Source: a virus
Length of the DNA stretch: 31,705 nt
IMG/VR virus record: IMGVR_UViG_3300004448_000131
Coordinates: 1 to 31,705 of that record
Direction: 5' to 3' (one strand)
Position 1 is the stretch's first letter; each line of letters begins with the position of its first letter. Made by a program: the position numbers and the translations under genes. The notes beneath the pieces are model-generated. The model saw only the letters and a list, made by a program, of their open reading frames with translations. It did not search any database and had not been told where the DNA came from. This document shows positions 7,524-30,928 of the stretch, piece by piece.

Positions 7524-7534
7524 ACTCAATCACC

Positions 7535-11944: not shown

Positions 11945-12357
11945 CAGCAATTCCACCTATCCAATGCTGCGCCTTTTGGTGTTCTTTTGCCACCTTTACT
12001 TGTGGGGCCTTTAACACCACTCATCCGCGCGCAAAATGACTTACGACGACCTGCTGCTTTACCACCCGGTTTGAGTGAACTTGGTTTCTTTGTTACAGGT
12101 CGCTTCAAGTTAGCACCTGTCTCACGCTTGGCTTTTGCACGACCTTTAGCGTTCAATCCACCTGTCTTAGCGTGTTTGTTTGGGTTGTAACCGTGAAACG
12201 GTTTACTCTTCTTCTTCGCTTTAAGGACAGATGTTGCTATTTCAAACGGTGAACAGCAATCACAAAATGACACGCTTTTCGCGATGTCTTCATCATTCAT
12301 CATTGCTAATTCTTCTGCTGTTATTGGCTCATGCATTATGTATTCGTATTCTGTCAT
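11944..12357 (-). CDS. Basic viral protein with NPNKHAKTGGLNAKGRAK motif (DUF6321-like)
   Basis: A 137-aa protein. The first ~48 residues are acidic and contain CDCC (32-35). From residue ~58 it is strongly basic with the stretch NPNKHAKTGGLNAKGRAK, then KRETGANLK, RRKSFCARM and a C-terminal DRWNC. I recognise this Gly/Lys pattern from small proteins carried by many phages and by giant viruses of algae and amoebae. I believe it is the family called DUF6321, although I cannot check the number. Molecular function is unknown; the charge suggests nucleic-acid binding. The ATG at 12357 is preceded by AGGTGATATA, whose TGA is the previous gene's stop. Its own stop overlaps the next start by one base. 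Confidence 0.82.
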   Translation of the reverse strand: MTEYEYIMHEPITAEELAMMNDEDIAKSVSFCDCCSPFEIATSVLKAKKKSKPFHGYNPNKHAKTGGLNAKGRAKAKRETGANLKRPVTKKPSSLKPGGKAAGRRKSFCARMSGVKGPTSKGGKRTPKGAALDRWNC

Positions 12358-12361
12358 TATA

Positions 12362-12811
12362 TCACCTGCTCGTTAAATGAAAATATCCGCATTGGCATCG
12401 GTATGGTTGGATAGGTCGACCTGCTTGCCGCGATTGATACTCAGCGTCATGTTGCGCTTGACCCAATGATTGGTATTTACCTTTATTGGGTGTAGGGCAA
12501 GGTGGCATATCGTTTTTTAAAACACTCCATGCGTCCTGCATTGCTTTGACGATGGTTGGTTTTCCACCCACTCCTTGCTTTTTACTACGCTTACGTTTTG
12601 TTGCCGCGCGCTTTTGACCTGACGACATAGAACCACTCGTCTTTGGAGTTTTACTTGAAACTTTGACAGAAGGGCGACACTTTGGATAACCCTTAGAAGA
12701 CTTCTTGGCTTTACTACGCCCACATGGAGGATGCTTACCATCCTTACCTGTGCGCGAAACATCCACCCACTTCTCCTTGAACCATCGGTTCAAATTCTTC
12801 TCAACAGTCAT
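12362..12811 (-). CDS. Basic viral protein with KEKWVDVSR / YPKCRP motifs
   Basis: A 149-aa, very basic protein. Residues 12-20 read KEKWVDVSR, followed by HPPCGR (27-32), YPKCRP (42-47), a Lys/Ser-rich linker with KRKRSKKQGVGGKP, and a C-terminal half-ribbon CQCGYFHLT. This combination is familiar from short conserved hypothetical proteins in phages, especially marine ones, and in giant viruses. The paired cysteines probably bind zinc. Function is unknown; DNA or RNA binding is a reasonable guess. ATG 12811 was preferred over GTG 12823 because it forms the ATGA overlap with the preceding stop. It is one of three neighbouring small proteins with this unusual cross-viral distribution. Confidence 0.8.
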   Translation of the reverse strand: MTVEKNLNRWFKEKWVDVSRTGKDGKHPPCGRSKAKKSSKGYPKCRPSVKVSSKTPKTSGSMSSGQKRAATKRKRSKKQGVGGKPTIVKAMQDAWSVLKNDMPPCPTPNKGKYQSLGQAQHDAEYQSRQAGRPIQPYRCQCGYFHLTSR

Positions 12812-13011
12812 TCTTTTGCCCACGCATCACAAGTATAGTCTTTATTGCAAGTGAAATCATACCACTTGCAGTAGCCCGTTTGAGGGTCTTCTGTTGCTGA
12901 ATCGTCCCACGCCTTGCAGTTACCACAACACTTGCTGCTTTCGCAAGGGCGATAATTTGGCGCGTCTTTCTTGGCTTTCATCAAAGCCCATGCTTCTTCA
13001 AGTGGAATCAT
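12808..13011 (-). CDS. Small Cys-rich protein (67 aa)
   Basis: The protein has seven cysteines in 67 residues: C23, C28, C29, C32 (ESSKCCGNCKAW), then GYCKW, FTC and TCDAW. The order C-x2-C ... C ... C ... CDAW resembles small metal- or Fe-S-binding phage proteins, but no exact family can be named. It is short, soluble and lacks a signal peptide. ATG 13011 overlaps the previous stop by four bases (ATGA), and its stop overlaps the next gene start by four bases. The role is unknown; it may be a zinc-stabilised accessory protein of packaging or host takeover. Confidence 0.78.
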   Translation of the reverse strand: MIPLEEAWALMKAKKDAPNYRPCESSKCCGNCKAWDDSATEDPQTGYCKWYDFTCNKDYTCDAWAKE

Positions 13012-13208
13012 TTCTTTTTGCCTCCTTTCTTCTTCTTACCTTTGAATTTACCTTGACAGTATTGAACTGCCCACCCATTTGCATACGCGCTTGGGTATAC
13101 ATCGAACTTTTTCTTAGCCGCTGCTTTACCTGCGGGGCATAGTTTCTTCTCAAGATAGTCAAAGGCTGCTTCTCCGCCTACGCAAAATTCACAATTACAA
13201 TTACTCAT
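13008..13208 (-). CDS. Small viral protein with FDVYPSAYANGWA motif (66 aa)
   Basis: A 66-aa protein. The N-terminus has CNCEFC (4-9) and a further cysteine at 24. Residues 33-48 read KKFDVYPSAYANGWAV, a pattern that recurs in small basic proteins of many phages and giant viruses. The C-terminal tail is almost all Lys and Gly (KGKKKKGGKKK), like a DNA-binding tail. ATG 13208 was chosen because it begins at MSNCNCEF and has a GGGGG stretch upstream; a longer reading from 13265 would overlap the previous gene and has no clear ribosome site. Function unknown. The stop overlaps the next gene by four bases. Confidence 0.78.
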   Translation of the reverse strand: MSNCNCEFCVGGEAAFDYLEKKLCPAGKAAAKKKFDVYPSAYANGWAVQYCQGKFKGKKKKGGKKK

Positions 13209-13240
13209 TTTAAAACCCCCATTCCTCAAACGGATACACT

Positions 13241-13534
13241 TTAACCACCTCGACAAATAGGGCAAGGGTCGCCTTCAATTTGACCTTTCCCTTGACAAGC
13301 AGGGCAACTATCATCACCCTTTGGTTGAGGTTGGTTTCCGAATAAAAACTGATACAAATCTCGGTTATCATCAGGTGTCATTGGTGCATTGAAGTTGATA
13401 GGTTTACGGCAATCATGGTTCTGTAATCCTTCATCGCCATAGAAGTAGCGTTCGCATTTAGGACATTGAACTTTACGTCCACCGCGTCCTTCATCACCGA
13501 TAGGATTATTTTTCAAAACGCGCCACCAACTCAA
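13241..13534 (-). CDS. Two-zinc-site protein just after the large terminase (97 aa)
   Basis: A 97-aa protein with two metal sites: CPKC-x12-H-x-C (C24, C27, H40, C42), a C2H2/C2HC-finger-like unit, and CPACQGKG...CPICRGG (C77, C80, C91, C94), which is the CxxCxGxG pattern of the DnaJ cysteine-rich region. A Pro/Gln linker lies between. It starts with TTG at 13534 inside the terminase stop (TTGA overlap); no other start exists before residue 52. Coupling to the terminase suggests a role in packaging or protein folding of head parts, but this is inferred. The DnaJ-like half could bind unfolded protein or simply be structural. Confidence 0.8.
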   Translation of the reverse strand: MSWWRVLKNNPIGDEGRGGRKVQCPKCERYFYGDEGLQNHDCRKPINFNAPMTPDDNRDLYQFLFGNQPQPKGDDSCPACQGKGQIEGDPCPICRGG

Positions 13535-14937
13535 TCTAACAACCCATCCATTATTTCATCTAAGTCCACGATTCGTTCGCGAAACTCCGTAGTCGCCCAA
13601 TGAGCCAATGCGAGAGCAATAGCAAAGTCATCGTGTCTACCTATGCTATCAAGTCTCCCTTTTTTACTCATTCCAAACATCATCAGTTCGCGTTCTAATT
13701 CACTTACCATTGTTCGTGAACGGTCATCGCCCCACGGTAATCGCATCTGTTCGTTCTCAAAACGCAACACCAAACCCATGAGGAGTGATTCACGTCGTTG
13801 ACGTGTAGAGATGAATGTCTTGATTGGAAGGTCAGTATCCGCGCGTAGTTCAGTAGCGAACACACGTTGGAAGTTGTTTGCTTCAAGTTCGATAACGTCA
13901 GGATTGAATTTTGCATTCAAACGCTGTATCTCCATGATTTGTGTGCGGAAGTCCATATTCTTACGACGAACCGCATGAACTAACTCAAGCAGTTCAGGGT
14001 TCGTTGATGGGCGACGAAGTACAACCATGACAGTATAGTCAGCGGCTCGGTCGCTTGAAATAGCGGGGTCCCAACCGACGAAGTATTGGTCATCGGGGTC
14101 GCCTGTTTCGCGGTCTATGAGTTTGAGTGTGTTATCTTTAGCGGTTTGAAGTACAGTCGATGGGAACAAACTGCTTACGTCATCCATCGGTTCACACAGA
14201 TATTCACGAGCGAATGCAATCGCTGGCATATCAGCCCTGCGCGCATCCAATGATTCTAAGTCCCATCGTTCAGGCCAAAGTGCTTCTCCTTTCCCATTGA
14301 TAGCGGGGTATGTTTCAACAAGATACCCATCGCGACTCTCAAGTTCTGTGTAAAGGTCAGTCGGTGTAAATGGTGTACCGACAATCATTAGTTTAGATGT
14401 GTGGTGGAGTGTAGGTACAAGAACTTCGTAAAACCAAGATGCGACGCGAGCAAGTTCTGTATCAGTTGTACCCCACAGAATGTCATCGCATAGAATGAGG
14501 TCAGGGTGTATACCACGAATAGCACCACCGACTGACTTCGCGCTGATGTTAGAACCATTATCGAATCCAAAGAAGGTTTTTGACCAAGAGTCAGCCTTCT
14601 TCATTTTAGCGAGAAAAGGCACACCGTCAATCAAATCGTTGAGTGTTCTCATGTGGTGTATAGATTGGTGTAGACTGTGCGAAATCAACACGGCTTTCGT
14701 CTTTGGATTGAACGCTGTCTTCCACAACATATAGCCAAGAAACAATGTCGACTTACCGTGGTCTCTCGCCGCTTTTACGCAATATCGTTTGCGCGCTTCA
14801 AGATTATCATACCATCGCTCATGATGATGCGAAAGTTGGAATCCGAGAATCTCTTCAAAGAAGAATTTAAAATCGCGCTTTGCTACTTCAAAATCAATCT
14901 CTTCAATTGCTTCAAGAGATAACGATTCTGACTGCAA
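13531..14937 (-). CDS. terL: Terminase large subunit (packaging ATPase and nuclease)
   Basis: A 468-aa motor protein that pumps DNA into the prohead and cuts the concatemer. The ATPase shows a Walker A variant AARDHGKST (56-64, Lys62) and Walker B LILCDD (147-152). The RNase H-like nuclease follows: GWDPAIS near 285 carries the first Asp, IELEANN near 350 the second acidic site, and GRHDDFAIALALAH near 440 the third. Length is normal to slightly short for the family. The only start before Walker A is TTG 14937, preceded by GGTGATAACC, in which the TGA is the stop of the gene before. No intein was seen. The stop overlaps the next start by four bases. Confidence 0.95.
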   Translation of the reverse strand: MQSESLSLEAIEEIDFEVAKRDFKFFFEEILGFQLSHHHERWYDNLEARKRYCVKAARDHGKSTLFLGYMLWKTAFNPKTKAVLISHSLHQSIHHMRTLNDLIDGVPFLAKMKKADSWSKTFFGFDNGSNISAKSVGGAIRGIHPDLILCDDILWGTTDTELARVASWFYEVLVPTLHHTSKLMIVGTPFTPTDLYTELESRDGYLVETYPAINGKGEALWPERWDLESLDARRADMPAIAFAREYLCEPMDDVSSLFPSTVLQTAKDNTLKLIDRETGDPDDQYFVGWDPAISSDRAADYTVMVVLRRPSTNPELLELVHAVRRKNMDFRTQIMEIQRLNAKFNPDVIELEANNFQRVFATELRADTDLPIKTFISTRQRRESLLMGLVLRFENEQMRLPWGDDRSRTMVSELERELMMFGMSKKGRLDSIGRHDDFAIALALAHWATTEFRERIVDLDEIMDGLLD

Positions 14938-18466: not shown

Positions 18467-19725
18467 CCTATTCCACCTCTTCTAACATACAAATCGTATG
18501 CGTGTGCGCCCCAACGAGTTGCGTCATCATCAGGGTCGGTTTCAGTTGCACCTGTTGGGTTTGATGTTTCTCCACCTGATGAATTCGGAGTAGACGTTTT
18601 ATCTTCTTTACGCATCAAACGACGCATAAGAACATTGAGATTATCCATAAGACGTCTATATTCCATTCTATCGCGAGGTGAGATACCTACCTTCAATTTC
18701 TGTGCGCGCCCCTTAAGGAATTCTTCTGATGCGAGGATAGAATCAGTAGAGCCGATACCACCTGCGGCCATAGCAGAAGCACCACCGCCGAGCATATTCA
18801 ATTTAGTTTCTTCTTGACCACCCGGTGTTGCTGTTGTGCGCGGTTGACGAGTTGCTTTAGCGTGTAATTTTTTACGACCTCTACCGCGAGGTGGTTTTGA
18901 TAGTCGAGATTGAAGTGTCATTGTAGGAGTAGGAGGGGTCAAGTCTTGCGTAGGTTGTGTTTGTCGAATCTGTTGACGCTCTGCTTCCGCTTCACGCTGT
19001 CTTGGGTCAGGGTACGATTGTTTTGCTCGCGAACGACCTGATGAACCACTAAGCCTGATGAACCGTGTCGGCTGACGATAAGTATATCCTCCACCAAACG
19101 AAGCGTATGGCGCACGCGCTCCTGCAAGAGAAGCCATGCTTCCGGGTTGGCGGACGTTACCTGCCTTAAGAGGGATACCGCTTCCTTTTCTTCGCCTTCT
19201 TCTTTTCAAAGATTCAACGGTTACATTTTTTCTTGACTTACGCTTTTTACCTGTTTTCGCTCTCGCTCTCGCTCGTACTGTTGAAAGAGTTGTTGTCTTT
19301 TCAGGTTTATCAGTATCATAGGCAGGTTTATCGCGCTTTTTACGAATGACTTCAAACGCTTCATCAATGTAAGCAGACGATGAAAGCATGATGTTTGTAC
19401 CTAATCCACTTGCGTTTGGGTTCGCACCGTCAATTGCTTCACTTTGACCGACTTGACCCGTCATTTGACCGAGTTCAGCCTGTTGCTTCATATCGCTATC
19501 TTCTTCATCTTCTTCATTCTTCTGAGGAATTTTAATTTTCATATGTTGCAAACCTTGCATCATTTTAGCGCGCTTATCTTGCTTTTCACGCTTCTTCGCG
19601 TCATGCAATGCACGCTCTTCTGAATCTTCGCGACCTACACTTGAATCTTCTTCAAGGTTCTCCGCACTTTGTCGAGGGTTGAATCGAAATCCTGCTGTAC
19701 TTCCAGTCCCTGCTGTACCAACCAT
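18463..19725 (-). CDS. Long basic, disordered protein, role unknown (420 aa)
   Basis: Not recognised. Nearly all of it is low complexity: an acidic N-terminal third with coiled-coil-like charged runs, a strongly basic middle (ARARAKTGKKRKSRKN, SLKRRRRRKGSG, RGRGRKKLHAKATRQP) and a Ser/Thr/Gly/Asp-rich end. A short helical unit near residues 330-370 (SPRDRMEYRRLMDNLNVLMR) is the only part that looks folded. The Lys/Arg clusters suggest binding to DNA, as in phage internal or core proteins. ATG 19725 overlaps the previous stop by one base (TGATG). It lies between the putative small terminase and the 597-aa protein, so a packaging or genome-condensing role is plausible. Confidence 0.78.
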   Translation of the reverse strand: MVGTAGTGSTAGFRFNPRQSAENLEEDSSVGREDSEERALHDAKKREKQDKRAKMMQGLQHMKIKIPQKNEEDEEDSDMKQQAELGQMTGQVGQSEAIDGANPNASGLGTNIMLSSSAYIDEAFEVIRKKRDKPAYDTDKPEKTTTLSTVRARARAKTGKKRKSRKNVTVESLKRRRRRKGSGIPLKAGNVRQPGSMASLAGARAPYASFGGGYTYRQPTRFIRLSGSSGRSRAKQSYPDPRQREAEAERQQIRQTQPTQDLTPPTPTMTLQSRLSKPPRGRGRKKLHAKATRQPRTTATPGGQEETKLNMLGGGASAMAAGGIGSTDSILASEEFLKGRAQKLKVGISPRDRMEYRRLMDNLNVLMRRLMRKEDKTSTPNSSGGETSNPTGATETDPDDDATRWGAHAYDLYVRRGGIG

Positions 19726-20393
19726 CAATCTTCACCGCCCATTAGTTTATTGCGAAGTCTCGCCCATACTTCAGGACTTTCTTTCGCTAACTCAACTTTG
19801 AGGATGTTGATGGTTTGCGCATTCATAGTTTCATTTGTAGTTCCTGCCGCGCGTTCTTGCACTCTTACAATGTCTTTAACAGTCTCACGCACCTCTTTGT
19901 GGAGCGCAACAATGTTGCGGACATATTGAGGGTCATTGCGGTCAGCGTCGTCAAGAAAATGTCCTAACTCACCGTTGATACGCGAAAGGTTTGTTCGTAA
20001 AGACTGCATCTCTTGTCCTGCCTCAACGATAATTAAATCAGCCGCACCTTTCTGTACAACAGGCTTGAGATGATGTTTGAGATGATGATATACATTAGAT
20101 TCAGGAATTTGAATGTCGTCAGCGATTTGTTGGGTTGTCATTGTAGCGTTGAAATAAGCCATTTCAAGACTTTCGCGTTTTGGTGAGGTACAGAAGAAGC
20201 AATCGCTGTTACTCGCCATGTGATATTCTCCCATGTGATTACGAAAATGACGGTCGGCTGTACCTTCGCGCCAATCCATATCTTTATCTAAATCTTTAGC
20301 GATGATAATTCCACTCTTCATCATTTCTTCTAAAGAATCGCGCCCTTCGTCTTGACAGAACTTGCAAGAAGCACGAATTATACGCTCCGCCAT
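19725..20393 (-). CDS. DNA-binding protein with duplicated 55-residue zinc/HTH modules; candidate small terminase
   Basis: A 222-aa protein. Two tandem modules have the same metal ligands at an exact 55-residue offset: C10, C13, H49, H53 and C65, C68, H104, H108. Conserved positions between them include R18/R73, LE 21-22/76-77 and an HTH-like helix before the histidines (TTQQIADDIQIPESNVYHH). A long helix follows (~115-190), and a C-terminal MNAQTINILKVELAKESPEVW segment resembles small terminase ends. The small terminase recognises viral DNA and feeds it to the large subunit, so the family assignment is plausible but not proven. The ATG at 20393 was chosen over a TTG at 20405; neither has a ribosome site. 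It is divergent from the plus-strand gene at 20419, with only 25 bp between. Confidence 0.7.
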   Translation of the reverse strand: MAERIIRASCKFCQDEGRDSLEEMMKSGIIIAKDLDKDMDWREGTADRHFRNHMGEYHMASNSDCFFCTSPKRESLEMAYFNATMTTQQIADDIQIPESNVYHHLKHHLKPVVQKGAADLIIVEAGQEMQSLRTNLSRINGELGHFLDDADRNDPQYVRNIVALHKEVRETVKDIVRVQERAAGTTNETMNAQTINILKVELAKESPEVWARLRNKLMGGED

Positions 20394-20418
20394 AGCAAAG
20401 ACCAAGTAGCCGTATCAA

Positions 20419-20739
20419 ATGAGTGTTTCTATGCGAGAAAGACTCAACAGAGTAAAAAAGGTGGCAGGTGTTCCTATAACAAAAGACACTCTGCATAGCC
20501 TTTCGCGAGCCGCTAAAGATGTTATTACGAACAAAAGAGCGACATTAGAAGAGAGAGAGCGACGGTTCAATATATGTAGAACTTGTGAACACAAAAATCA
20601 CGACCGTTGCGGTTTATGCGGTTGCTTCATTAAAACAAAGACAATACTGTTGAACAGCGAATGTCCTATCAAAAAATGGTCAACCTTGTTGAGCGAGTCG
20701 TCTGTAAACGATTCCAGTAGCACTAAAACAAACGAATAG
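20419..20739 (+). CDS. Lone plus-strand Cys-rich zinc protein (106 aa)
   Basis: This is the only convincing plus-strand gene inside the minus-strand operon. Residues 1-50 are basic and helical. The core has C53, C56, C64, C67, C69 and C82 in the pattern CRTC ... CGLCGCF ... CPIKKW, a known type of small phage protein whose function is unknown; zinc binding is likely. The tail (90-106) is Ser/Thr/Asn-rich. No ribosome site precedes ATG 20419; a second ATG at 20431 also has only GAGTG. It may be leaderless, as is common in archaea. Its last 60 bp overlap the 3' end of the membrane gene at 20680-20913 on the other strand, so transcripts would be complementary there. Confidence 0.75.
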   Translation: MSVSMRERLNRVKKVAGVPITKDTLHSLSRAAKDVITNKRATLEERERRFNICRTCEHKNHDRCGLCGCFIKTKTILLNSECPIKKWSTLLSESSVNDSSSTKTNE

Positions 20740-20913
20740 CGCGCCAATCAACCAACTTAGTTGTGAAGAAGACATATCCGCCCCTGAAAAAATTAAAATG
20801 ATGAAACATCCAAGTGTTAACGCGATAAGTTGCACCATAATCATATCAACAACAACTGATTTGCGCAAGTTTGTCATGTCGCTCATAGCGTTGTAAAGAC
20901 TGCCTATGTCCAT
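20680..20913 (-). CDS. Small two-helix membrane protein (77 aa)
   Basis: Two membrane helices are evident: residues ~20-43 (VDMIMVQLIALTLGCFIILIF) and ~52-70 (LSWLIGALFVCFSATGIVY), joined by a short polar loop and ending in RRLAQQG. By positive-inside reasoning both ends probably face the cytoplasm. It fits the size of holins or small membrane anchors, but no family can be named. The ATG at 20913 has an excellent CAGGAGGACG upstream. It is one base from the previous stop, so it belongs to the membrane/GTPase block. Its 3' end is antisense to the plus-strand Cys-rich gene. Confidence 0.8.
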   Translation of the reverse strand: MDIGSLYNAMSDMTNLRKSVVVDMIMVQLIALTLGCFIILIFSGADMSSSQLSWLIGALFVCFSATGIVYRRLAQQG

Positions 20914-20914
20914 A

Positions 20915-21505
20915 TCATCGTCCTCCTGTTGCTAATCCACGCACTAAAGAACCGAGTCCGCCACCGACATTTTGCATCATTCCGGGGTCGGTTAATGCAT
21001 TATCTAACATACCTTGTAATGAACTTTGGTTCGCGATTTGCACCATTTGTTGGAATTGCATATTTATTTGTTGAACATTGTTAGATGCTTGGTTGAGGAT
21101 TTGTGTTTGTGTCATAGTGACGCTGTCAGCAGTCGGTAAACCTTGTACACCGCTGAAATCAAACGTATATGCATTGTCCTTTTCAACCAATTTCGTGTTT
21201 GATAGGATTGTTTGAACAGAAACAGCAACAACACTACTTAGAAGTGAGATAAGCATATTCATATTCGCGCCGTTGTTGTCAGAAAGCCATTTGTCAATTG
21301 AAGGGTTAGATGTAATCATAGCCGACAAAATGTCCATCTCTGAAGGTGGTGGAGGGGGTGCATATGGGTTGTAACCACCGTTTTGTGCTGCTGTCGAACC
21401 TGTATACTGATGCGGAACTTGCTGTTGCGCACCCGGTAATCCAAGATTTAACGCTCCGTTCTGCTGTTGCGCGGGTTGTTGATTGTTGGTAAACGGCCAC
21501 ACCAT
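20915..21505 (-). CDS. Pro/Gln-rich protein with a hydrophobic helix (196 aa)
   Basis: Not recognised. The first ~55 residues are Gln/Pro/Gly-rich and disordered, ending in NPYAPPPPPSEMD. A hydrophobic helix lies at ~82-101 (MNMLISLLSSVVAVSVQTIL), possibly membrane-inserted or packed in an oligomer. After that comes a Gln/Asn-rich amphipathic region (NQASNNVQQINMQFQQMVQ) and a Gly-rich end. ATG 21505 has GAGGTGG six bases upstream. It lies between the zinc protein and the small membrane protein. A minor virion or membrane-associated protein is possible; the sequence does not decide. Confidence 0.75.
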   Translation of the reverse strand: MVWPFTNNQQPAQQQNGALNLGLPGAQQQVPHQYTGSTAAQNGGYNPYAPPPPPSEMDILSAMITSNPSIDKWLSDNNGANMNMLISLLSSVVAVSVQTILSNTKLVEKDNAYTFDFSGVQGLPTADSVTMTQTQILNQASNNVQQINMQFQQMVQIANQSSLQGMLDNALTDPGMMQNVGGGLGSLVRGLATGGR

Positions 21506-21514
21506 GTTACCACC

Positions 21515-22405
21515 TCACGCGCTCCCTTCATTTGATTCTGTCGGTAAAGGAAGAGGGTTCATCTTTTGTTGCATTTGATGCATCGCGAGAGCGTCGAAAA
21601 GTAGTCTTGTGTTGTTACCGCCTTGAAATTGACGCATATCGAAGACAACCATAACTAAATCGTTCGTTCCCGTAGCACTATTAGCCATATGAGTTACAGG
21701 GATGTTGTCTTTCTTGAGCATTTCAAAGAACGGTTGGTACTTATCAAGAGAAGGAGGTGTGTTATCTCTCTTCCTTAACGATGTTACTGGAACCGCGACA
21801 GTAGAAACACCCTTTTTGAGTTTCGCTCTAAGCGTTCCTGTATTGGCTTCTTCTTCTGCCTCATCCTCTTTCTCCCATTTTGTTAAAAGATGGTATAAAT
21901 GAAGGTGTTCAGGGCAATATGTTGCCCTCATACGCTTACCACTTGTTACTTTATCGCGTGCAACGAAGGCTTCTACTTCACCAGTTACAGGGTTTTTGAA
22001 GTAAATGTCCCACAAAGATTGCCCTGTCTCATCATCAGCGACCTGTTCATAGATGTTACCTGCCATCCGCAAGAGGTATTCAACATCACATCCGTCTACA
22101 CAACAACGCATTGTGTTGGTATTATAGCGATATTTACCACCCCAAACGCGTTTAGGTGAAAAAATAGACCTTTTTGTTGGTGTTAACAGGTTATATGCTT
22201 GTTTTATGTCCTTTCTTCGCGCTTTTTTAGGGTTTGAGTGCCTTGAAGGGTAAAAATTAACCTGTGGAACCTCTATATGTGTGTCTACATTACTCATCGC
22301 AGCCTGTGCTGTTGCCTGTTGTTGCATCTGTGCAAGGCTCATTTGTGTCTGTGCGGCAAGCCGCAGTAGGTCATTTTGGGGTGTATTACCAAGTATTTTG
22401 CTCAT
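21515..22405 (-). CDS. Hypothetical protein with a Cys/His metal site, next to the GTPase (296 aa)
   Basis: Not recognised. The N-terminal 40 residues are Gln/Ala-rich and helical (LAQMQQQATAQAAM). A basic segment follows (NPKKARRKDIKQAY). A probable zinc site is formed by RCCVDGCDVEY near residue 100 and YCPEHLHLYH near 167, about 60 residues apart, bracketing a compact domain (SLWDIYFKNPVTGEVEAF). A glutamate-rich linker leads to a C-terminal domain with VVFDMRQFQGG and LLFDALAMHQMQQ. ATG 22405 is preceded by GGTGATAAA, where TGA is the GTPase stop, so the two are tightly coupled and probably work together, perhaps as regulator or effector (inference). Confidence 0.75.
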   Translation of the reverse strand: MSKILGNTPQNDLLRLAAQTQMSLAQMQQQATAQAAMSNVDTHIEVPQVNFYPSRHSNPKKARRKDIKQAYNLLTPTKRSIFSPKRVWGGKYRYNTNTMRCCVDGCDVEYLLRMAGNIYEQVADDETGQSLWDIYFKNPVTGEVEAFVARDKVTSGKRMRATYCPEHLHLYHLLTKWEKEDEAEEEANTGTLRAKLKKGVSTVAVPVTSLRKRDNTPPSLDKYQPFFEMLKKDNIPVTHMANSATGTNDLVMVVFDMRQFQGGNNTRLLFDALAMHQMQQKMNPLPLPTESNEGSA

Positions 22406-22409
22406 TTTA

Positions 22410-23102
22410 TCACCAATTTAGCATTTTCATCATTGTTTTTTCGACATTCCAACCAATTTTAGTCGCCATCATGCTAACACGACACGGAATACCTGCTTTT
22501 TGTAACCTTCGCATAGCAGGACGGTGTGAATTGAACACATTATGCTCGCGTAGACGGTTAGATTGCCACAAAACATTCGCAGTATCGTCCCACCACTCGT
22601 CTGCTTTGTTCGCTATAAGCCATATTTGCTTAGGAGCATAGCGTTTTCCGCGTAATCTTGAGCGTAAAGAGCGATATTTCCACCGTTTTTCAATCAAAGC
22701 GTCGACGAGAAACTCAAAACCCCCCACCGCATCAATAACGTCAGCACCTTGCCCTTTCAAAACGCGCGTATCTGTCATAAATATGACTATTTCGACCTGT
22801 CTGTCAACCATATCGTCAATCCAAAGGTTCCAAAAGCGTTGTTGACCACCTATATCGGCTGAATGAACGACTCTTTTCTCCCCTTCCCACCGAAGTCTCT
22901 TACGCGATGCTTTAGGAAGAACATATCCGCCCCCAATAAGTCGTTTCGCGTGCATAGTTCTATGTTCTATGTCATCCATTTCGCCCGGAGTACGCATAAA
23001 TTGGTCAAGTGTTGTCTTACCAACTTGTGTTGGACCATAAACTCCAATTCTGCGCGGTTTAACGTAGTTGTATAGTTCTTTACCGTATACAACTGCACCC
23101 AT
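22410..23102 (-). CDS. Arf/Ras-like small GTPase
   Basis: A 230-aa protein with a complete set of small-GTPase motifs in order and usual spacing: G1 P-loop GPTQVGKT (23-30), a candidate switch I Thr near 49, G3 DIGGQ (83-87) followed by a switch II like that of Arf proteins (QRFWNLWIDD), a VEIVIFMTD strand (103-111), G4 NKAD (165-168) and G5 MATKIGWNV (212-220). DxGGQ and a Trp a few residues later are typical of the Arf/Sar branch rather than translation GTPases. An N-terminal Gly2 follows Met, but lipidation cannot be inferred. An extra basic stretch (~139-158, SLRSRLRGKRY) lies before G4. It probably acts as a GTP switch at membranes, as neighbours on both sides are membrane proteins. The start is ATG 23102, with a weak GGGAAG upstream. 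Confidence 0.85.
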   Translation of the reverse strand: MGAVVYGKELYNYVKPRRIGVYGPTQVGKTTLDQFMRTPGEMDDIEHRTMHAKRLIGGGYVLPKASRKRLRWEGEKRVVHSADIGGQQRFWNLWIDDMVDRQVEIVIFMTDTRVLKGQGADVIDAVGGFEFLVDALIEKRWKYRSLRSRLRGKRYAPKQIWLIANKADEWWDDTANVLWQSNRLREHNVFNSHRPAMRRLQKAGIPCRVSMMATKIGWNVEKTMMKMLNW

Positions 23103-23132
23103 AAGTGCGCTTCCCGCGAGTGTTGTAACGAT

Positions 23133-23369
23133 TCAACTCACCCAACCACGCACTTTGTTGTAAAACCACTCAACAGTATTAGCCCATATGCTTACATCTG
23201 TTGCCTGTTCAAACCAAGATACACCTAAAGCCGTTGAAAGACCGACTATGATACAGAATATCAACGCTTTACCGCGCTCATAGTAAGTATCAAGTGTGTT
23301 CTGAGTGTGTAATGCGCGTAGCGTTGCTTCTGTCGCATCATCTGATGGTGTTCTGAATAACCAACCCAC
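23133..23369 (-). CDS. Small single-helix membrane protein (78 aa)
   Basis: One membrane helix at about residues 34-53 (ALIFCIIVGLSTALGVSWF), preceded by a basic/polar N-terminal part and followed by an aromatic amphipathic tail (IWANTVEWFYNKVRGW). The start was set at GTG 23369 because AAGGAGTGA, containing the previous gene's stop, lies just upstream. An ATG at 23402 would give 89 residues but has no clear ribosome site and overlaps the previous gene by 29 bases. It directly precedes the GTPase gene by 30 bp, so it could recruit the GTPase to the membrane. No family can be named; a holin or virion membrane protein is also possible. Confidence 0.72.
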   Translation of the reverse strand: MGWLFRTPSDDATEATLRALHTQNTLDTYYERGKALIFCIIVGLSTALGVSWFEQATDVSIWANTVEWFYNKVRGWVS

Positions 23370-23373
23370 CGAA

Positions 23374-23898
23374 TCACTCCTTAATCTTCTTATATGTTCC
23401 ATCAGAGTTTCTTAATCGCTTATCAGAGCCGCTTAAATTCAGAGGTTTGTCAGATTTAGCCTTATGCATAGGTGTTTCTGATTCTTCATTCAGACCCATC
23501 AAACCGAGATATTGTTGAACTTCAGGGTCTTCTTCCAACGCTTCCATTTGCTTCGCGAAAGAGACTTCTTGTTTCTTGATTTCCATCTCCATCTGTGCTT
23601 GTGCGAAACGCATTTGTTGGTTTTGCATCTGACGCGACATATTTCTCTGCATATTTGATATTACTGCGCGTTGGTCCATACCATCTTGCGCTAACATTTT
23701 GTAAATAAAGTACGCCATACCTTGTAGCGTGAATGCTCCCATAGTATACGTTATTGAATTTGTGTAAGTTGTGTCATCTTTGAGCCATAGCCCTGCATCA
23801 AAGACTGCAATCGCGCATCCGACAAGAATACTTACGAAAGAAATCAGTCCTAATACGCGTAATTCATCGGTATTGTTTTGTGTTCTATTTGGTTGCAT
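23374..23898 (-). CDS. Two-helix membrane protein with Gln/Met-rich coiled coil (174 aa)
   Basis: Two hydrophobic helices at about 15-38 (VLGLISFVSILVGCAIAVF) and 49-69 (ITYTMGAFTLQGMAYFIYKM). After them comes a long Met/Gln/Arg-rich helix (MSRQMQNQQMRFAQAQMEME) likely to form a coiled coil, and a polar tail ending in YKKIKE. ATG 23898 was preferred, because GAGGAAGTGA is well placed for it; a GTG at 23907 would sit too close to the site. This is the first gene after the AT-rich gap and so probably the first of a sub-operon with the GTPase. It might be a membrane scaffold or anchor for the GTPase block; that is inferred from order only. Confidence 0.77.
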   Translation of the reverse strand: MQPNRTQNNTDELRVLGLISFVSILVGCAIAVFDAGLWLKDDTTYTNSITYTMGAFTLQGMAYFIYKMLAQDGMDQRAVISNMQRNMSRQMQNQQMRFAQAQMEMEIKKQEVSFAKQMEALEEDPEVQQYLGLMGLNEESETPMHKAKSDKPLNLSGSDKRLRNSDGTYKKIKE

Positions 23899-24028
23899 AA
23901 CACTCACTTCCTCTGTGTGTTGCGTGTCGCATCGACCACTTAAGCATATTCATTCACCCTATTATCACTATTGTAGTATTATTATGATAACAATATAGTA
24001 ATATTATTATTATTAGAATAAGTTAAGA
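23899..24028 (-). promoter_or_regulatory. AT-rich gap with probable internal promoter
   Basis: The only clearly non-coding stretch within the operon, 130 bp and about 75% A+T in its right part. On the minus strand a TATA-like TACTATATTG (23991-24000) lies about 95 bp before the start at 23898. Inverted repeats include TTATCA/TGATAA (23962-23967 and 23985-23990), and AAT/ATT triplet runs fill 24000-24015. The end near the gene has the ribosome site GAGGAAGTGA. It could combine read-through termination of the giant gene with a new start for the membrane/GTPase block. No simple hairpin plus T-run terminator is visible. Confidence 0.4.
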
Positions 24029-27000
24029 TTATTGAGAATTCTCTTCTTGCGGTTGCTGTTGCAATTGTGGAACACTCGGTTGAGGACTCAACTGGAACTC
24101 AGGTAAATTCTGCGGTACATCCATCTGACTCATTGGCTGTTTTTGCTGATGAGAACTCGCGGCTAACGAATCATAAATATTCAAATCGTCGTATCGCGGT
24201 GCAATCCATGTTGGATGGAACTTCTTGATGGCTTTTTGAGCGTTCTCTATTTCGTCGAGCGTCTCTTTAGGTAATGTACCTTCATGGTGCGCGTCTTGCA
24301 TTTCTTTTGCACTACCATACCCCGATTCAGCGATTAAATTTGTCATCTTCTGCTCGTATCTATGGTTTGGTGTGAACTCCATTTGTGCAACACCCCACAT
24401 TTGGTCATAAATTGCTTTATCTCTCGCTTTCGCTTCCGAATCTACGCTGAAATTATGAGCGACGCTTGCGTTGAACACTTCTTCTGAATTTTCTAACGGC
24501 ATGGATTTGACATTGATAGGAGTCGCGCTATTCATGATTTCATCTTTGAATTGCTTACCACTCATACCATCTCTATTTTTGCTATCGAATCTCGCCTTAG
24601 TTTCCATATCGTTCTCATCATCAAAACCCATCAACCTCGCGGCTTCGTTGTACGCTTGAGTCATAAGTGGTGCATTTCCTTGCGCTAACTGCATAAAGTT
24701 ACCCTCATCCAGTTTTGTATCGGCACTCATACCTGCTGCCTTCATCGCTGATACAACTTTTTGATGGAAACCGGGGTGAGATATACCGTCATATCTCGCG
24801 AATAATTTTTTGAGTCCTGTAAGTTTGAGATACTCTGTCCACATTGGTTTAATGGATGCTTTTACAACATCGTTGTACGTTTTGTCCATACCCACTCTTT
24901 GTTGACCTCTCGCGAATTCACCTTCTTCTAATTCACGACTGAAATATTTGTTGCGCTTGCTTTGGTTCAACTTACTTTTTATATCATCTTTCCAAGTCAG
25001 TTCAGGTGAATCTGTTTGAACATTTTCTAACCCTTCTCTTTGTTGGTCTGTGTATTTGAAATCATCCATCAACTCATTCAATTTACTATGACCCATTTTA
25101 CTCAGTTGTTGCTCAACCAATGGCTGATACCCGTTATCGAAATCTCCCTTCTTTGGATTCTCCATACCAGTCATCGCGAGATTTTTCATCTTCTGCGCTT
25201 CTTCTTCGTTAAAATTGTTTTCTCCGGTATGTCTATCCCAAGCAGATAAAAGTTCAGGAGAATGTCTGAATAAATGAAGGATGTCATCAACATCTAACGT
25301 GTGAGGGATTCCCGCATTTTCAGGCGCGTGTATACCCATAGCCTCTTCATGATGCGTCAAGAATCGCCCATCGTTGTAATGAAGGTCATCATAATCCGAT
25401 GGATTTCTCAAACGATGTGCATAACCACTTTCGGTGAAACCGAATTCTTGTGTGTCCTTCATAGGTTTATCTTTCTCATTTTTACCTGTTACTATGAGAT
25501 GCTTTGTCGCGTATTCGTGTAATTGAGACATTGCTCGCGACACTTCATGCTCATGGTCTCCGTGTGCAGATGCGTTATCAGGGTGGTTAACAATAGTGCG
25601 AAGCAGTTCCATAACCGCCTCTTCATCCTGTCCATTGTTAATCGCCATGTTCGCCATTTCTTTTGCTCGCGACTCAATCATGTTGTTGTGGTAAGCCCTC
25701 GTTAGCGCGTCGCTCATTGCTTTATTTTCAGGCAACTCTTTCTCAGCCTCTCGCATAGCGAATTCTGTGGATGTAGCCTCTTCGACTGACGTTGGTTGCC
25801 GTCGCTCACCTTCGCTAACGTCTCCTTTGCCTTTCTGAGCGAGAATATCTTTCCATGTTTTTGCTTTGTTTCTACTCTCTTCGTCTGCAAGTTCATATTT
25901 TTGACGATTCATTCTTTGTATGTACTTAATCTTCGTCAGAGGAGCGAACGCTCCACTCGCGACATTGTCTTTGAAAACTTCAAGTGCTAATGATTTTGTT
26001 GGGATTCTTCCTTTGATTCCTGATATGCGACCAATTTTATCCATCAATCTGTTAACATCGTATTGCTTACCGTGAGATTTGTTATCCTTCGTTCCTTCGT
26101 AAGTATGCGTGTTGCCGTCTTCATCTGTATACTCGTATCCATTCAAAGGCGCGTCGTCTTCAGGGTCGACTATACCGCTTCCGTGGCAATGAGCGCAGAC
26201 ACCGTCAGCGCACTTTCCTGTATGTGAGTCAGGATGTTCTTGGTCGCAGTCAGGGCAAGTAACATGGTGATGGTTATGAGGTTCTTTCTCAGAATCATCA
26301 AAGTTTTTCTTGTTTGGTGGACGTAATACTTTCTTGATTTCAGCCTTCATAGCCTTACTTTCAGGATGCGCGTGTCTCAACTGTTTGTTATGCGCTCGTA
26401 TGTATGAAACTGCATCATCCATAGTTATTGCACGCGCACCGCCACAGGTTCCACAAGCGGTCGGGCCACCGCGAATGTGTGGTTCATCGAATGTTTCTCC
26501 CCTCGCTATTTTGTCAAGAGTAGCATCATCATAATGGCTGTTTTGAATTGCTCTTGCAACATCTCTTTCGTGCAGACCTTCTTTGGTATCTTCGGAAGGT
26601 TGCTCAGAGAGGGAGTATTCTTCTTTTTCTTCGTCTGTCATGTAATCTTGGATACTATCCATACTCACATCAGTTTCATGGTGAACTGCATCAAAGTAAG
26701 CATTGAGTTCTTTGTTACTCAACATACGCTTGTTATGTTTTTTACTTAACAATTGTAATCGCGCTGCATCAGGTATGTTTGGTAAATGCATATTGTTGTC
26801 CATGAAGGTTAAGCCTGTTCCACCCGTAGAACCTTGTTGACCAACAAGATATTCATCAGGTGCGTATAGATTTGAAGCGCGCTCGCCTCCACTATCATCA
26901 CCCATGAACACCTGTTGTAGAGGTAATCCATCACTATCGGTGTACATCTTCTCTCGCAAAGAAAGCATCTTTTCCACCATCCCCTTCTCACTCTCTTCTT

Positions 27001-30000
27001 TGAGAATAGGCATGAGTGTGTTCTCATATTTTTTCGTCTTCTCATTGAAAGTAATAGTCTTCAACAAAGCACCTAATGCTTGCGCGCTCTTTCTTTTGTT
27101 GTAATCTTCATTTTTCGACAAGTTGTCAGTATTTTTCTGAATCCTATTGACTTTACCTTTCATCCGTTTGAAATAATCTTCAACGTCTGTAACACCATCT
27201 TCCATCGCTTTACGTTCAAATATCATTTGTTCACGAGGTTGTGTAAGTTTGTTCTTCGCAAGGTTTGATGTGTCCAAACCGATAGCATCTCTCCCCTTTG
27301 GTACAGAATCGGACAGAGGTCTGTCAATTATCAGACGAGTGCTTTGACCTGCCTTTCGCGGAGGGCGAATGTCAACGATTCTGTAATCTTCTCCACCGAC
27401 TGTGATGTTTCCATCCGATGGAATTCCATGAAGTTGCATAGCGTGCGAAGGAATCTGTAATTCTCTATCACCTTGTACTGCATCTTCTGATAACTCGACG
27501 CGCCCATCTCTTATTGCGTGCAATCTGTCAGTTAGGTGTCCCGCGAACTCGTCAGATATATCTTGTTTTCTTTGCATAACTCGTTCATAACCTTCAGGAT
27601 TAACCTTTTCAGACAAATTGCCATTTTTGACTCTCTGTCCGTACTCCTGCTCCCACATTTCCAACTCTAAATCATGCTGTTGTTTGACATCTTCAATGTC
27701 TCTCATCAAATTGTTGTATCGTTTAAGCCTAACTTGTTGTTTACTCGCTGAATTCATTTTATTGGAGAACGATTTGATGAATGCCCTCATTCCCTTTTTA
27801 TCTTTCAAAGAGTTGATAGATACTTTCTTCCCTTTATCGTCAGCGAACTCACCATTCTTAACATCGCGTAGTATATCAAACGCTTCAACAATACCACTCA
27901 TTTGCGCGTTAAACAGGTTCTTGACTCTCAGGTCTTCAATGGATTTATCATCCATAAATGTCGAAGGTGCAAGCATACCTAATGCTACGCGCGTAGACGC
28001 AGGTGTTCTTGCTGCACCCATAGGTTGAATTTTCATATCTTTGAAGTGTAAACCGGGAAACTTAACATCCAAGTTTTCAATTTTTTCATCATAGTTCATC
28101 GCGGCTTTTTTCATCTCTCGCTTTATCTCTTTACGAACAGAGTCTTTACCGCCTTGATAATACTTGGCTTTATTTTCCAATTCACTAACGTAATCCTCAA
28201 ACGATTTTTTACCGCCTAAAACATAATGCGCCATTTCAGCCAACGATTGTTGCCCTTCTGTGGGCAGTAAGGGTATGAAATCGGATTTCATTGTAACAGG
28301 GTTAAACCTGAAATCCAACTGTGGAACCATGACGCGACGATGTTTAAATGCTGAAATTCGCGAATCGTCATGTGCTGTCCTTGCTTCTTCTGCCGTTGAT
28401 GCGGAGAAATGTTTAGGATGACAAGCGACGCATTCTTCTGCTTCACTCAGCAACTTTGATTTTCGCTCATCAGATAAATCATCGAATGATTCATCGTCTT
28501 TAGGTTTAGAATGGTGGTGGTCAATGTGTTTTTTTCGTTGTTCGATGGATTCTTCCATACGCGATAAATTTTCAGCCTGAGTTTCATTCGCTCTTTTAAT
28601 AGTGTAAAGTGTTCGTAGTAACGCTCCTTGACTCACATCACCAGTTAACTTACCAAACATATTAGCGAAGGCTTCATCGAACCCTTCTTTTGAAAACCCA
28701 CTCTCAGAATAACGCGCACCCATTTCGGCTAAATCAATAGGGTCGATACCAAACTCTTCGGCTTTATCTCGCAGTTCCGCAGTATCTCTTGCGACTTTGT
28801 TTACGAACGATTGTGTGATACCTGCATCGAAGCATTTTTGGAATCGCGCTATGTTCTTTTTCCCGTATGAATTCAACTTCTTTTCAGGGTCGTCGCTGTT
28901 CATGATTGTACTCATTCTGCGAATATCTTCGGTGTTCAGTTTGAGTTTAGCGATGTCTTTTTTACTCATACCTTCTTCTCTCAACTTCACCTTAAATTGA
29001 AGAAGATGTCTTCCTGCACCGACTAAATTATCCATGAACTGCGATGATGCTTTGATGATTTGTTGAGTGGTTTTACCGTGATACGGATGACCTTCAGGGA
29101 AGTCAGTACCGTCAGGTATTTCACTAAAGTAAGTTGGTCGATAATCACCAGTAACGTCATTCAATACTTGGTCGCGAAGGGCGTTGTATTCATCTTTACC
29201 ACCCACAAACATATTGTTTTCTAACATCATTTCTAAGTCGACTAAACGACTGTCCTTCGCGTCTTTCGCTTGACCGCCTCGTTTCGTTGAAGCGGCATAT
29301 CGACCCAATTTAGTTGCCTTCACACCGCCTCTCGTTCCTTTCACTTCGCGTTGCATTTCTTCAACAGAAGGGAGATTTGATGTTTCACCGCGCGCACTTC
29401 TATCACTTCCACGTTCAGTTCTCGCTTCCATGTTTAAATCTTGTATGTCAGTTGATGCAGTCTGCGAACCACTTAGTTCGCTTAACACTCCTTCGTCCAT
29501 CGCTGACCTGAGAGCAGGGTGAGTTTCTGCACCATCTAATGTTGGTAAATTCATAGCAACCTTTTCTCGGTTTTTTTGGTCGTTTGGTTTGTTACCTCGT
29601 AAGAAGTATTGCGCGATGTCATCATGAGCATTCGGCTCATCTTGTAAGATGACACCCATTTCCTTCGCTGCTGTGTAAAACGATGGGGTAACGAAGTCAG
29701 GTGCTTTGTGTGTACTCGCGGCTTGACCAAAGCGACCTCCACGTCCCGAAGTGCCTACTGCTCGGTCTTGTAGAAAGACGCGCATATGTCTGTTCAAGTC
29801 TTCTTGCACCAACGGAATAGCATCTTTCATATCTGCTAATCCTTCTTTGTCAGCCTTGTTACGGATGATTTTAGCCCACTTTGACATTGTCTTAGGGTTG
29901 CCTCTAACTCCTTCGTTAGGGCGTAATACAGGGCTTGAGAACACGTCTTTGTCATAGAACTGTTTTATTTTCTTAGCATCGCGTGTATCTTCGCCTGTAT

Positions 30001-30811
30001 CGTAGTATCTCTTCTGTTCTTCAGGGGTTTTATACTGAGCAGATGCTAATTGCTTAGGTTCGGCTGCTGATAACGCTTCACGCATTCCTTCAGGAATATC
30101 AGCAAACCCGCGACGACCTGTTACTCTTCGTAATGTCTTATCTTCTTCGCGAACCCTGACAGGGACATTGAGTCTTTCGATGTCTTCCATTGTAGTGTAG
30201 CGTATAGGGTGTTTTGTTTTCTCTTGAAAATAATTTAGAAGCGCGTTTTTACTACGAGGGTTGTTTGCCTGAGCAATCCATGCAGTAATGTCATCAGGTA
30301 CGCGGTTCGTCTTTCTTGACTGGTCAAGACTGCCGTTGTCTTCCTCGTCTATTTGTCTTCTGAACCCCAACTCTTCACCAAAATGTTCAACCATTTTGTC
30401 AAGCGCGGTTAAAAGCGGTTCAGTAAGTACAGGTTCTTCCATGATGCTTGGAATATCAACTTCACCTGTCTCTTCGTTAGTCTTTTCTGCGTAGCGTTGT
30501 GCTTCATCTAAACCAAATGTATCTGCTATCATGTGGTTATGCGCGAAGATAATATCATCGTAAAGCGCGTCATAGTTTATTTCACCTACACTATCGAAGC
30601 CATCTTCGTCTTCTTCACCTTTTTCCCATAACGGGGGGTTATCCATGAGTTGCTTCATGTATTTACCTAAAGCGCGTCTTGCAGACTTCAGGCTCAATTC
30701 TTTTTTAGTGGAATCCTTGTTAGCCTTCATCCTTTCGACTTGAGCCTCTGTCCTATTCGGATTCAACTTATCCTTATCCTCCGCCTTGACGATACGAATG
30801 AAGCGACCCAT
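24029..30811 (-). CDS. Giant late protein of unknown function (2260 aa) with split DnaJ-like zinc site
   Basis: The first gene of the late operon and the largest. The sequence is hydrophilic, helical and rich in Lys, Asp, Met and His, without membrane segments. A small Cys pair with histidines, ECVACHPKHF, lies near residue 789. Residues ~1452-1545 hold a split DnaJ-type zinc region: CGTCGG, then ~70 residues including EPHNHHHVTCPDCDQEHPD, then GVCAHCHGSG. The last ~45 residues are Gln/Pro-rich. Its C-terminal part (1800-2200) has many NxMxxAR-type helical pieces but no enzyme motif I can name. ATG 30811 (MGRFIRIVK) was chosen; reading further up to 30925 enters the non-coding hairpin region. 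Likely a virion or injected protein, by size and operon; unproven. Confidence 0.75.
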   Translation of the reverse strand: MGRFIRIVKAEDKDKLNPNRTEAQVERMKANKDSTKKELSLKSARRALGKYMKQLMDNPPLWEKGEEDEDGFDSVGEINYDALYDDIIFAHNHMIADTFGLDEAQRYAEKTNEETGEVDIPSIMEEPVLTEPLLTALDKMVEHFGEELGFRRQIDEEDNGSLDQSRKTNRVPDDITAWIAQANNPRSKNALLNYFQEKTKHPIRYTTMEDIERLNVPVRVREEDKTLRRVTGRRGFADIPEGMREALSAAEPKQLASAQYKTPEEQKRYYDTGEDTRDAKKIKQFYDKDVFSSPVLRPNEGVRGNPKTMSKWAKIIRNKADKEGLADMKDAIPLVQEDLNRHMRVFLQDRAVGTSGRGGRFGQAASTHKAPDFVTPSFYTAAKEMGVILQDEPNAHDDIAQYFLRGNKPNDQKNREKVAMNLPTLDGAETHPALRSAMDEGVLSELSGSQTASTDIQDLNMEARTERGSDRSARGETSNLPSVEEMQREVKGTRGGVKATKLGRYAASTKRGGQAKDAKDSRLVDLEMMLENNMFVGGKDEYNALRDQVLNDVTGDYRPTYFSEIPDGTDFPEGHPYHGKTTQQIIKASSQFMDNLVGAGRHLLQFKVKLREEGMSKKDIAKLKLNTEDIRRMSTIMNSDDPEKKLNSYGKKNIARFQKCFDAGITQSFVNKVARDTAELRDKAEEFGIDPIDLAEMGARYSESGFSKEGFDEAFANMFGKLTGDVSQGALLRTLYTIKRANETQAENLSRMEESIEQRKKHIDHHHSKPKDDESFDDLSDERKSKLLSEAEECVACHPKHFSASTAEEARTAHDDSRISAFKHRRVMVPQLDFRFNPVTMKSDFIPLLPTEGQQSLAEMAHYVLGGKKSFEDYVSELENKAKYYQGGKDSVRKEIKREMKKAAMNYDEKIENLDVKFPGLHFKDMKIQPMGAARTPASTRVALGMLAPSTFMDDKSIEDLRVKNLFNAQMSGIVEAFDILRDVKNGEFADDKGKKVSINSLKDKKGMRAFIKSFSNKMNSASKQQVRLKRYNNLMRDIEDVKQQHDLELEMWEQEYGQRVKNGNLSEKVNPEGYERVMQRKQDISDEFAGHLTDRLHAIRDGRVELSEDAVQGDRELQIPSHAMQLHGIPSDGNITVGGEDYRIVDIRPPRKAGQSTRLIIDRPLSDSVPKGRDAIGLDTSNLAKNKLTQPREQMIFERKAMEDGVTDVEDYFKRMKGKVNRIQKNTDNLSKNEDYNKRKSAQALGALLKTITFNEKTKKYENTLMPILKEESEKGMVEKMLSLREKMYTDSDGLPLQQVFMGDDSGGERASNLYAPDEYLVGQQGSTGGTGLTFMDNNMHLPNIPDAARLQLLSKKHNKRMLSNKELNAYFDAVHHETDVSMDSIQDYMTDEEKEEYSLSEQPSEDTKEGLHERDVARAIQNSHYDDATLDKIARGETFDEPHIRGGPTACGTCGGARAITMDDAVSYIRAHNKQLRHAHPESKAMKAEIKKVLRPPNKKNFDDSEKEPHNHHHVTCPDCDQEHPDSHTGKCADGVCAHCHGSGIVDPEDDAPLNGYEYTDEDGNTHTYEGTKDNKSHGKQYDVNRLMDKIGRISGIKGRIPTKSLALEVFKDNVASGAFAPLTKIKYIQRMNRQKYELADEESRNKAKTWKDILAQKGKGDVSEGERRQPTSVEEATSTEFAMREAEKELPENKAMSDALTRAYHNNMIESRAKEMANMAINNGQDEEAVMELLRTIVNHPDNASAHGDHEHEVSRAMSQLHEYATKHLIVTGKNEKDKPMKDTQEFGFTESGYAHRLRNPSDYDDLHYNDGRFLTHHEEAMGIHAPENAGIPHTLDVDDILHLFRHSPELLSAWDRHTGENNFNEEEAQKMKNLAMTGMENPKKGDFDNGYQPLVEQQLSKMGHSKLNELMDDFKYTDQQREGLENVQTDSPELTWKDDIKSKLNQSKRNKYFSRELEEGEFARGQQRVGMDKTYNDVVKASIKPMWTEYLKLTGLKKLFARYDGISHPGFHQKVVSAMKAAGMSADTKLDEGNFMQLAQGNAPLMTQAYNEAARLMGFDDENDMETKARFDSKNRDGMSGKQFKDEIMNSATPINVKSMPLENSEEVFNASVAHNFSVDSEAKARDKAIYDQMWGVAQMEFTPNHRYEQKMTNLIAESGYGSAKEMQDAHHEGTLPKETLDEIENAQKAIKKFHPTWIAPRYDDLNIYDSLAASSHQQKQPMSQMDVPQNLPEFQLSPQPSVPQLQQQPQEENSQ

Positions 30812-30928
30812 TAGTGTTGGGGAGAACGACCATGCCCTTGAAGATAACGGTTCGATTTTTTCTGCGATTTTTTTTTGACCCCACAAAAAAAATGTCTGTA
30901 TTTCGCATGGGGTTAAGCAGGGCAAATT

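Follow-up and report, generated by a model that had tools for sequence, protein, structure and literature searches.

A conserved late-gene cassette around a predicted Arf-like small GTPase in probable tailed viruses of marine archaea

Can the late module of a tailed virus of prokaryotes encode a small GTPase of the kind that organizes membranes in cells and, if so, what would it do there? The question is raised by a virus record of 31.7 kb, the whole of which (31,705 nucleotides) is the window analysed here and the minus strand of which carries the late module. An earlier note, made from the sequence alone, had read one late gene as an Arf-like small GTPase with all five G motifs, unusual in tailed viruses and possibly controlling membrane events such as egress, or host cell polarity.

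The gene itself held up. An ORF of 230 amino acids begins with an ATG at 23102 and runs to 22410 on the minus strand, as the note had it, and carries the motifs listed there; one correction concerns its start. In relatives, the conserved stretch reaches ~10 codons further 5', with an AGSAL[VM]G extension whose first codon is usually ATG, GTG or TTG. The corresponding codon in the window is ATC, directly after the stop of the upstream gene p89, leaving the start unsettled in the window. The true start is probably the family start at 23132, ~10 codons 5' of the first ATG, and, on the evidence of the ORF, relatives, fold and dN/dS, we annotate a small Arf/Ras-like GTPase at 22410–23132 (minus strand). 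Translation in the window could begin at the inner ATG at 23102 or at an unusual start codon at 23132, or the contig could carry a base difference at that position.

The upstream extension contributes hydrophobic residues to an N-terminal helix segment ahead of the G domain (IVTTLAGSALMGAVVYGKELYNYVKPRR; 23049–23132, minus strand), and a helix is predicted at residues 2–12 of the AF2 model, before the G domain. We found two viral lineages carrying the gene, A and B (see below), and the helix is more hydrophobic in B, where it is TM-like, than in A, where hydrophobicity is only moderate (median of the maximum 19-residue hydropathy, 1.66 and 1.05, respectively). A membrane helix directly before the G domain is also a feature of SR-beta, and one lineage-B protein weakly matches SRPRB (E = 0.049). 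The protein might then be a targeting factor of the SR-beta type, anchored in the membrane and assisting the insertion of viral membrane or tail proteins. We consider this very unlikely, as the cassette has no SR-alpha-like partner, G3 is DxGG rather than the SR-beta type, and other GTPase families score equally or better.

Four G motifs can be read directly on the minus strand, numbering residues from the first ATG: G1/P-loop GPTQVGKTT (G23 to 31; 23010–23036), G3 DIGGQ (D83–Q87) with the following Trp, W94 (DIGGQQRFWNLW; 22821–22856), G4 NKAD (N165–168; 22599–22610) and G5 MATK (M212–215; 22458–22469). The earlier note had claimed all five motifs and listed these four; the fifth, the switch-I Thr of G2, is only inferred here. 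The candidate is an invariant RT pair, R48–T49, with 20 residues from K29 to T49. Its role is a possibility inferred from this spacing, which is close to that of Ras and Arf, and model confidence there is low. W94 lies 11 residues past the G3 Asp, and a Trp at that distance is the Arf spacing.

The motif residues are invariant in 20 diverse relatives, GKTT of the P-loop among them. Across lineages A and B, the Walker A motif GxxxxGK[ST] is invariant, as is the G3 Asp within its DxGG or DxAG forms; G4 is NKAD or NK[YF]D, hence NKxD in both lineages, and G5 is MAT[KRNQ] in lineage A and SAK in all 65 distinct lineage-B proteins. The canonical SAK, together with NKxD, makes the GTPase assignment firm. 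An insertion before G4 contains many basic and aromatic residues. The Arf-type DxGGQ plus Trp described earlier therefore holds for the window protein, but its Gln varies across the family. In the 118 distinct proteins of lineage A whose motif is readable, the catalytic Gln position holds Q in 82, E in 30, D in 5 and H in 1; in lineage B, it holds E in 64 of 65 distinct proteins. Hydrolysis, which is untested, may be slow or differently assisted where Glu replaces the catalytic Gln.

An AF2 model built from 20 sequences reached a pLDDT of 72.5 and a pTM of 0.74 and was poor around switch I. The best 50 Foldseek matches in the PDB were all small GTPases, either by themselves or as part of a complex (probability 1.00), and included Rab, Ral, Ras and Rag, with modest TM-scores of ~0.4–0.5 by query length. 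The window protein alone matched no Pfam family and had no significant PDB sequence match. Across the family, NCBIfam TIGR00231 (small_GTP) matched 34 of 43 members (best E = 1.4e-4) and Pfam Roc matched 23 of 43. The invariant motifs, the model, the PDB fold matches and the small_GTP matches together indicate that the product is very likely a small P-loop GTPase of the Ras superfamily, with GTP binding and hydrolysis themselves inferred. Several other matches were discarded: those to RecA were weak matches to the P-loop that recurred in fused RecA chains, those to acyl-CoA dehydrogenase covered only the stretch after G3 and were treated as chance, and phrog_29250 (E = 8e-4, no function) covered G4–G5 only and gave no lead. 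A defence role was rejected as well, with no PADLOC match to the GTPase.

The earlier note had named as one refutation a structure search placing the protein with non-GTPase P-loop ATPases. The search placed it with Ras-superfamily GTPases instead, and the fold search and profile comparison to TerL rule out a P-loop ATPase. One could still propose that the protein is not a working GTPase, being degenerate or an ATP-using P-loop protein, given that the catalytic Gln is unconserved, that the window protein alone lacks a Pfam match and that AF2 confidence is low near switch I. This is very unlikely: GKTT and NKxD are invariant in two lineages, lineage B has SAK, dN/dS is 0.054 and no ATPase appeared near the top of the fold search.

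Membership in the Arf family is a narrower matter. Pfam Arf (PF00025) did not match the window protein, and no record scored above the curated cut-off, the best family member reaching E = 0.018. The protein fails strict membership, because the window protein lacks a Pfam Arf match and the catalytic Gln is unconserved; 'Arf-like' is nonetheless fair because of GKTT, DxGGQ with a Trp at +11, the helix at the N terminus and the profile similarity to Arf-like proteins of Asgard archaea, and the earlier label stands in that looser sense. In the viral structure library BFVD, all 27 matches with E ≤ 0.001 came from giant eukaryotic viruses, mostly Ras/Rab-type, and none from a tailed virus of prokaryotes. 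No annotated phage record matched the GTPase either, in keeping with the earlier remark that such a gene is unusual in tailed viruses. The giant-virus proteins are likewise virus-encoded small GTPases of the same fold, but they belong to unrelated viruses of eukaryotes, share only 8–17% identity over the structural alignment and, to our knowledge, do not lie in a conserved cassette.

The late module runs, in order, through a 2298-aa protein, p177, p89, the GTPase, p296, p196, p77, p226, three long proteins and TerL, followed by small proteins, the portal, a 1973-aa protein and the head protease. All of the following lie on the minus strand. Upstream of the GTPase are p177 (23374–23907), with an N-terminal TM helix, possibly two, and a charged C-terminal part, and, directly adjacent, p89 (23133–23402), a small protein with one predicted TM helix. 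Directly downstream is p296 (21515–22405), which is conserved, has a zinc-like site of Cys and His residues (C101, C106, C164, H167) and gave no PDB fold match. Beyond it lie p196 (20915–21505), a Gln-rich helical protein; p77 (20680–20913), small and with two predicted TM helices; and p226 (19725–20405), a candidate small terminase with Cys/His motifs, an HTH and a helical tail, this assignment being inferred. The large terminase subunit, TerL, is at 13531–14937 and the portal protein at 8584–10422.

Other genes of the window are recorded here as separate observations. A small Cys-rich, zinc-ribbon-like gene (20419–20739, plus strand; phrog_13558, E = 1e-13) lies on the opposite strand within the late module, overlaps the end of p77 tail-to-tail by 60 bases and was detected in 78 of 85 sequences searched. 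At 11944–13265 (minus strand), p137, p153 (DUF5872) and p85 are mostly 64–97% identical between viruses whose other genes are ~50–60% identical, and their positions vary between genomes, either past TerL or ahead of the cassette; these three may be mobile or recently exchanged. Ahead of the portal, p466 (10419–11819, minus strand) has a LAGLIDADG/HNH-endonuclease-like C-terminal part (phrog_5046, E = 1.6e-10) and was found at 38–78% identity in the long relatives examined. The very long proteins of 2298 and 1973 aa (24029–30925 and 1608–7529, minus strand) have no PHROG match. In the latter, the C-terminal 500 residues are the part conserved among distant relatives, and lineage B has a shorter homologue.

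Two scans for relatives of the GTPase returned 125 and 192 matching stretches (overlapping sets), and the median dN/dS among close relatives was 0.054 (58 pairs), showing purifying selection. These counts and this ratio, with the motifs invariant in 20 relatives, exclude a chance origin. To avoid ascertainment by the GTPase itself, we fetched loci via divergent TerL. The gene was present in 43 of 43 TerL-anchored loci with at least 9.5 kb of upstream sequence. Among 48 GTPase-bearing loci, 42 kept the full order p177-p89-GTPase-p296-p196-p77-p226-TerL, and the remaining six had shorter versions of it. In this lineage, lineage A, the candidate small terminase comes right after the cassette, and TerL lies ~7–10 kb downstream of the cassette. 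Against distant relatives, the GTPase is 56–62% identical, as conserved as TerL (52–54%), and it is likely a core late gene, conserved like a hallmark gene.

Some relatives selected by MCP appeared to lack the GTPase; those with the family TerL end before the gene's expected position. Among the MCP-selected records, it is clearly absent only from haloarchaeal Druskaviridae and one outlier with a different TerL (G052). A host gene or contamination is ruled out by viral flanks in every locus, and close matches in cellular genomes were virus contigs binned into unrelated MAGs. Absence from every relative together with host-like flanks, the other outcome that would have refuted the earlier note, was thus not observed; the gene is present in the late module of every close relative where that position is visible.

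Lineage B was first seen as two virus contigs with distant GTPases (E = 1e-34 to 1e-32) in a control search whose targets took in a contaminated MAG, and 188 further matching stretches were found in virus contigs. Its long contigs are ~92–97 kb, with a GC content of 35–36% in the two MAG contigs, and its GTPase is ~33% identical to that of lineage A. Here, the gene sits downstream of the MCP and not upstream of the terminases. Before it are proteins of ~129 aa and 72 aa, both with TM helices; next to it on the other side is a p296 homologue (hhalign 94%, E = 1e-7), and there is also a weak positional homologue of p196 (30%, E = 6e-4). This order was kept in 50 of 50 complete neighbourhoods. 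No homology was detected between the TM proteins of lineages A and B, which match by position and topology only. The core of the block is thus the GTPase and the zinc-site protein, always with small membrane proteins upstream, and it occurs at two genome positions. As the order is the same at different positions, the cassette behaves as a unit.

These positions also bear on a less likely alternative, a role in head assembly or DNA packaging, in which the GTPase acts not on membranes but as a timer or chaperone of head maturation or genome packaging. The cassette lies near the candidate small terminase and TerL in lineage A and after the MCP in lineage B, conservation equals that of TerL, and basic and aromatic residues abound in the insertion before G4. 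Against this reading are the three predicted membrane-protein neighbours in lineage A and two in lineage B, the hydrophobic N-terminal helix, and the fact that related Druskaviridae build heads without this GTPase.

Which viruses carry the cassette? The closest counterparts of the portal, and of the MCP in relatives, belong to haloarchaeal Druskaviridae (30% and 36% identity, respectively). Relatives of 91–118 kb carry genes for PolB, for a clamp loader and for a chaperonin (Cpn60/TCP-1). The chaperonin is present in all 23 long records tested, with strong matches in lineage A (E = 1e-106 and better) and much more diverged ones in lineage B (best E = 1e-22 to 1e-48). The group fits the features of magrovirus-like viruses of Poseidoniales (PMC10768690, PMC12999244): the long relatives have the Magrovirales combination of Druskaviridae-related MCP and portal, PolB replisome, 90–110 kb genome and chaperonin. 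These are very probably magrovirus-like tailed viruses of marine archaea, with host and order inferred and no reference magrovirus genome compared. Separately, five of the virus contigs had been binned into MAGs labelled Cytophagaceae, Asgard group archaeon or Maricaulis, and such mis-binning in public MAGs calls for caution in MAG-based host inference.

Among cells, the viral profile picked up small GTPases of Asgard archaea, with E values of 1e-7 to 1e-5 per genome. In two bacterial orders, one alphaproteobacterial and one of the Bacteroidota (labels of the MAG centres), it found nothing besides virus contigs in MAGs. Profile-profile comparison gave 99.3% (E = 3.6e-20) for extended Arf-like Asgard proteins, whose best Pfam family is Arf, 95.7% for Arf and 92.1% for Ras-like proteins, with the TerL and MCP controls at ~0.2%. 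The Asgard Arf-like GTPases, among them forms of ~290 aa that are extended at the N terminus, share the GxxxxGK[TS] and DxGGQxxFWxLW signature. They differ in being cellular, in identity (~30%, over the aligned part only) and in an N-terminal domain of ~100 residues. The phylogeny with archaeal GTPases that the earlier note had proposed was run: the two viral lineages group together (99/98) on a long branch, with Asgard groups adjacent. We discounted this placement as proof of origin, given the long branches. Asgard Arf-like GTPases are the nearest cellular relatives found, in a sampling of Asgard and two bacterial orders only, and the donor is not established.

An archaeal link could suggest a host take-over switch that builds nothing itself but mimics and sequesters a host system of small GTPases, vesiculation or cell division, such as an ArvA-like pathway. 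The Arf-like motifs and the archaeal nearest relatives favour this reading, and the place of the catalytic Gln is frequently taken by Glu or Asp, so that cycle control may differ from that of cellular switches. Take-over genes are usually early and variable, however, and this gene lies in the late structural module, has hallmark-level conservation and showed no loss in close relatives. We regard take-over as unlikely.

The best explanation, though one we hold as no surer than its negation, is a membrane-anchored GTP switch acting late on assembly or egress, in the manner of ArvA; no experiment supports it, and the function is inferred. ArvA, from Haloferax volcanii, is an Arf-like GTPase that carries an amphipathic helix at its N terminus; its deletion lowers vesicle production ~threefold and its overexpression raises it, and a Zn-ribbon protein encoded in the same operon has been suggested to serve as the GAP of ArvA (PMC10927574). 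By analogy, the N-terminal hydrophobic or amphipathic helix would place the viral GTPase on the host membrane, where it would act with the two small membrane proteins encoded just upstream, and the zinc-site protein encoded just downstream may regulate the GTP cycle. In its GTP state, the switch would probably recruit these membrane proteins or organize them so that, late in infection, the host membrane is deformed or opened or assembling heads are docked there, comparably to ArvA-driven vesicle budding. The predicted TM helices of p177, p89 and p77 favour a membrane role; on the other side, late-module membership would fit a virion or packaging function just as well. The GTPase sequence, predicted fold, fixed cassette at two positions and N-terminal hydrophobicity are shown, whereas membrane localization, partner binding, late timing and direction of effect are inferred. 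The membrane or egress role suggested earlier is thus plausible but remains an inference.

The likeness to ArvA (OapA; with ArvB and ArvC) comprises a small Arf-like GTPase, an N-terminal helix, a neighbouring Zn-site protein and an archaeal setting; the viral gene differs in lying in a structural module flanked by small TM proteins. Neither p296 and its relatives nor p196 nor the lineage-B neighbours matched the Pfam domains of ArvB (DUF2073) and ArvC (DUF2072). We therefore say that the viral system works like ArvA in this model, not that it is ArvA; no direct sequence comparison was made. Eukaryotic Arf shares GKTT, DxGGQ with a Trp 11 residues after the Asp, an xAT-type G5 and an N-terminal helix, but the viral protein falls below the Pfam Arf cut-off and has a variable catalytic Gln and an insertion before G4; we saw no evidence of N-myristoylation in it. 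The bacterial polarity switch MglA is also a prokaryotic small GTPase, but it lacks the G3 Asp (PMC4316618) that is invariant in the viral proteins. No roadblock/MglB family matched among the neighbours scanned, and no evidence was found for the cell polarity role suggested in the earlier note. The C-terminal roadblock domain of Rag/Gtr is absent too, the viral protein ending right after the last G-domain helix.

In the literature searched, we found no such GTPase described in a prokaryotic tailed virus and no paper pairing magroviruses with a GTPase; the main magrovirus genome papers were incompletely covered, and some supplement could already list the protein as GTP-binding. The phrase 'vesiculating GTPase' occurred only in the ArvA paper (PMC10927574). 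A bolder possibility is that these viruses encode a vesiculation-type machine of their own, in which the Arf-like GTPase, its membrane partners and a zinc-site regulator remodel or bud the archaeal membrane for assembly or release. If true, it would be the first dedicated small-GTPase membrane system in viruses of prokaryotes, and Arf-like membrane switches, known from eukaryotic trafficking and haloarchaeal vesicles, would extend into prokaryotic tailed viruses. How tailed viruses exit archaea without a peptidoglycan wall is largely open, and the GTPase cassette, conserved in two abundant ocean lineages of probable archaeal viruses, offers a concrete and testable candidate.
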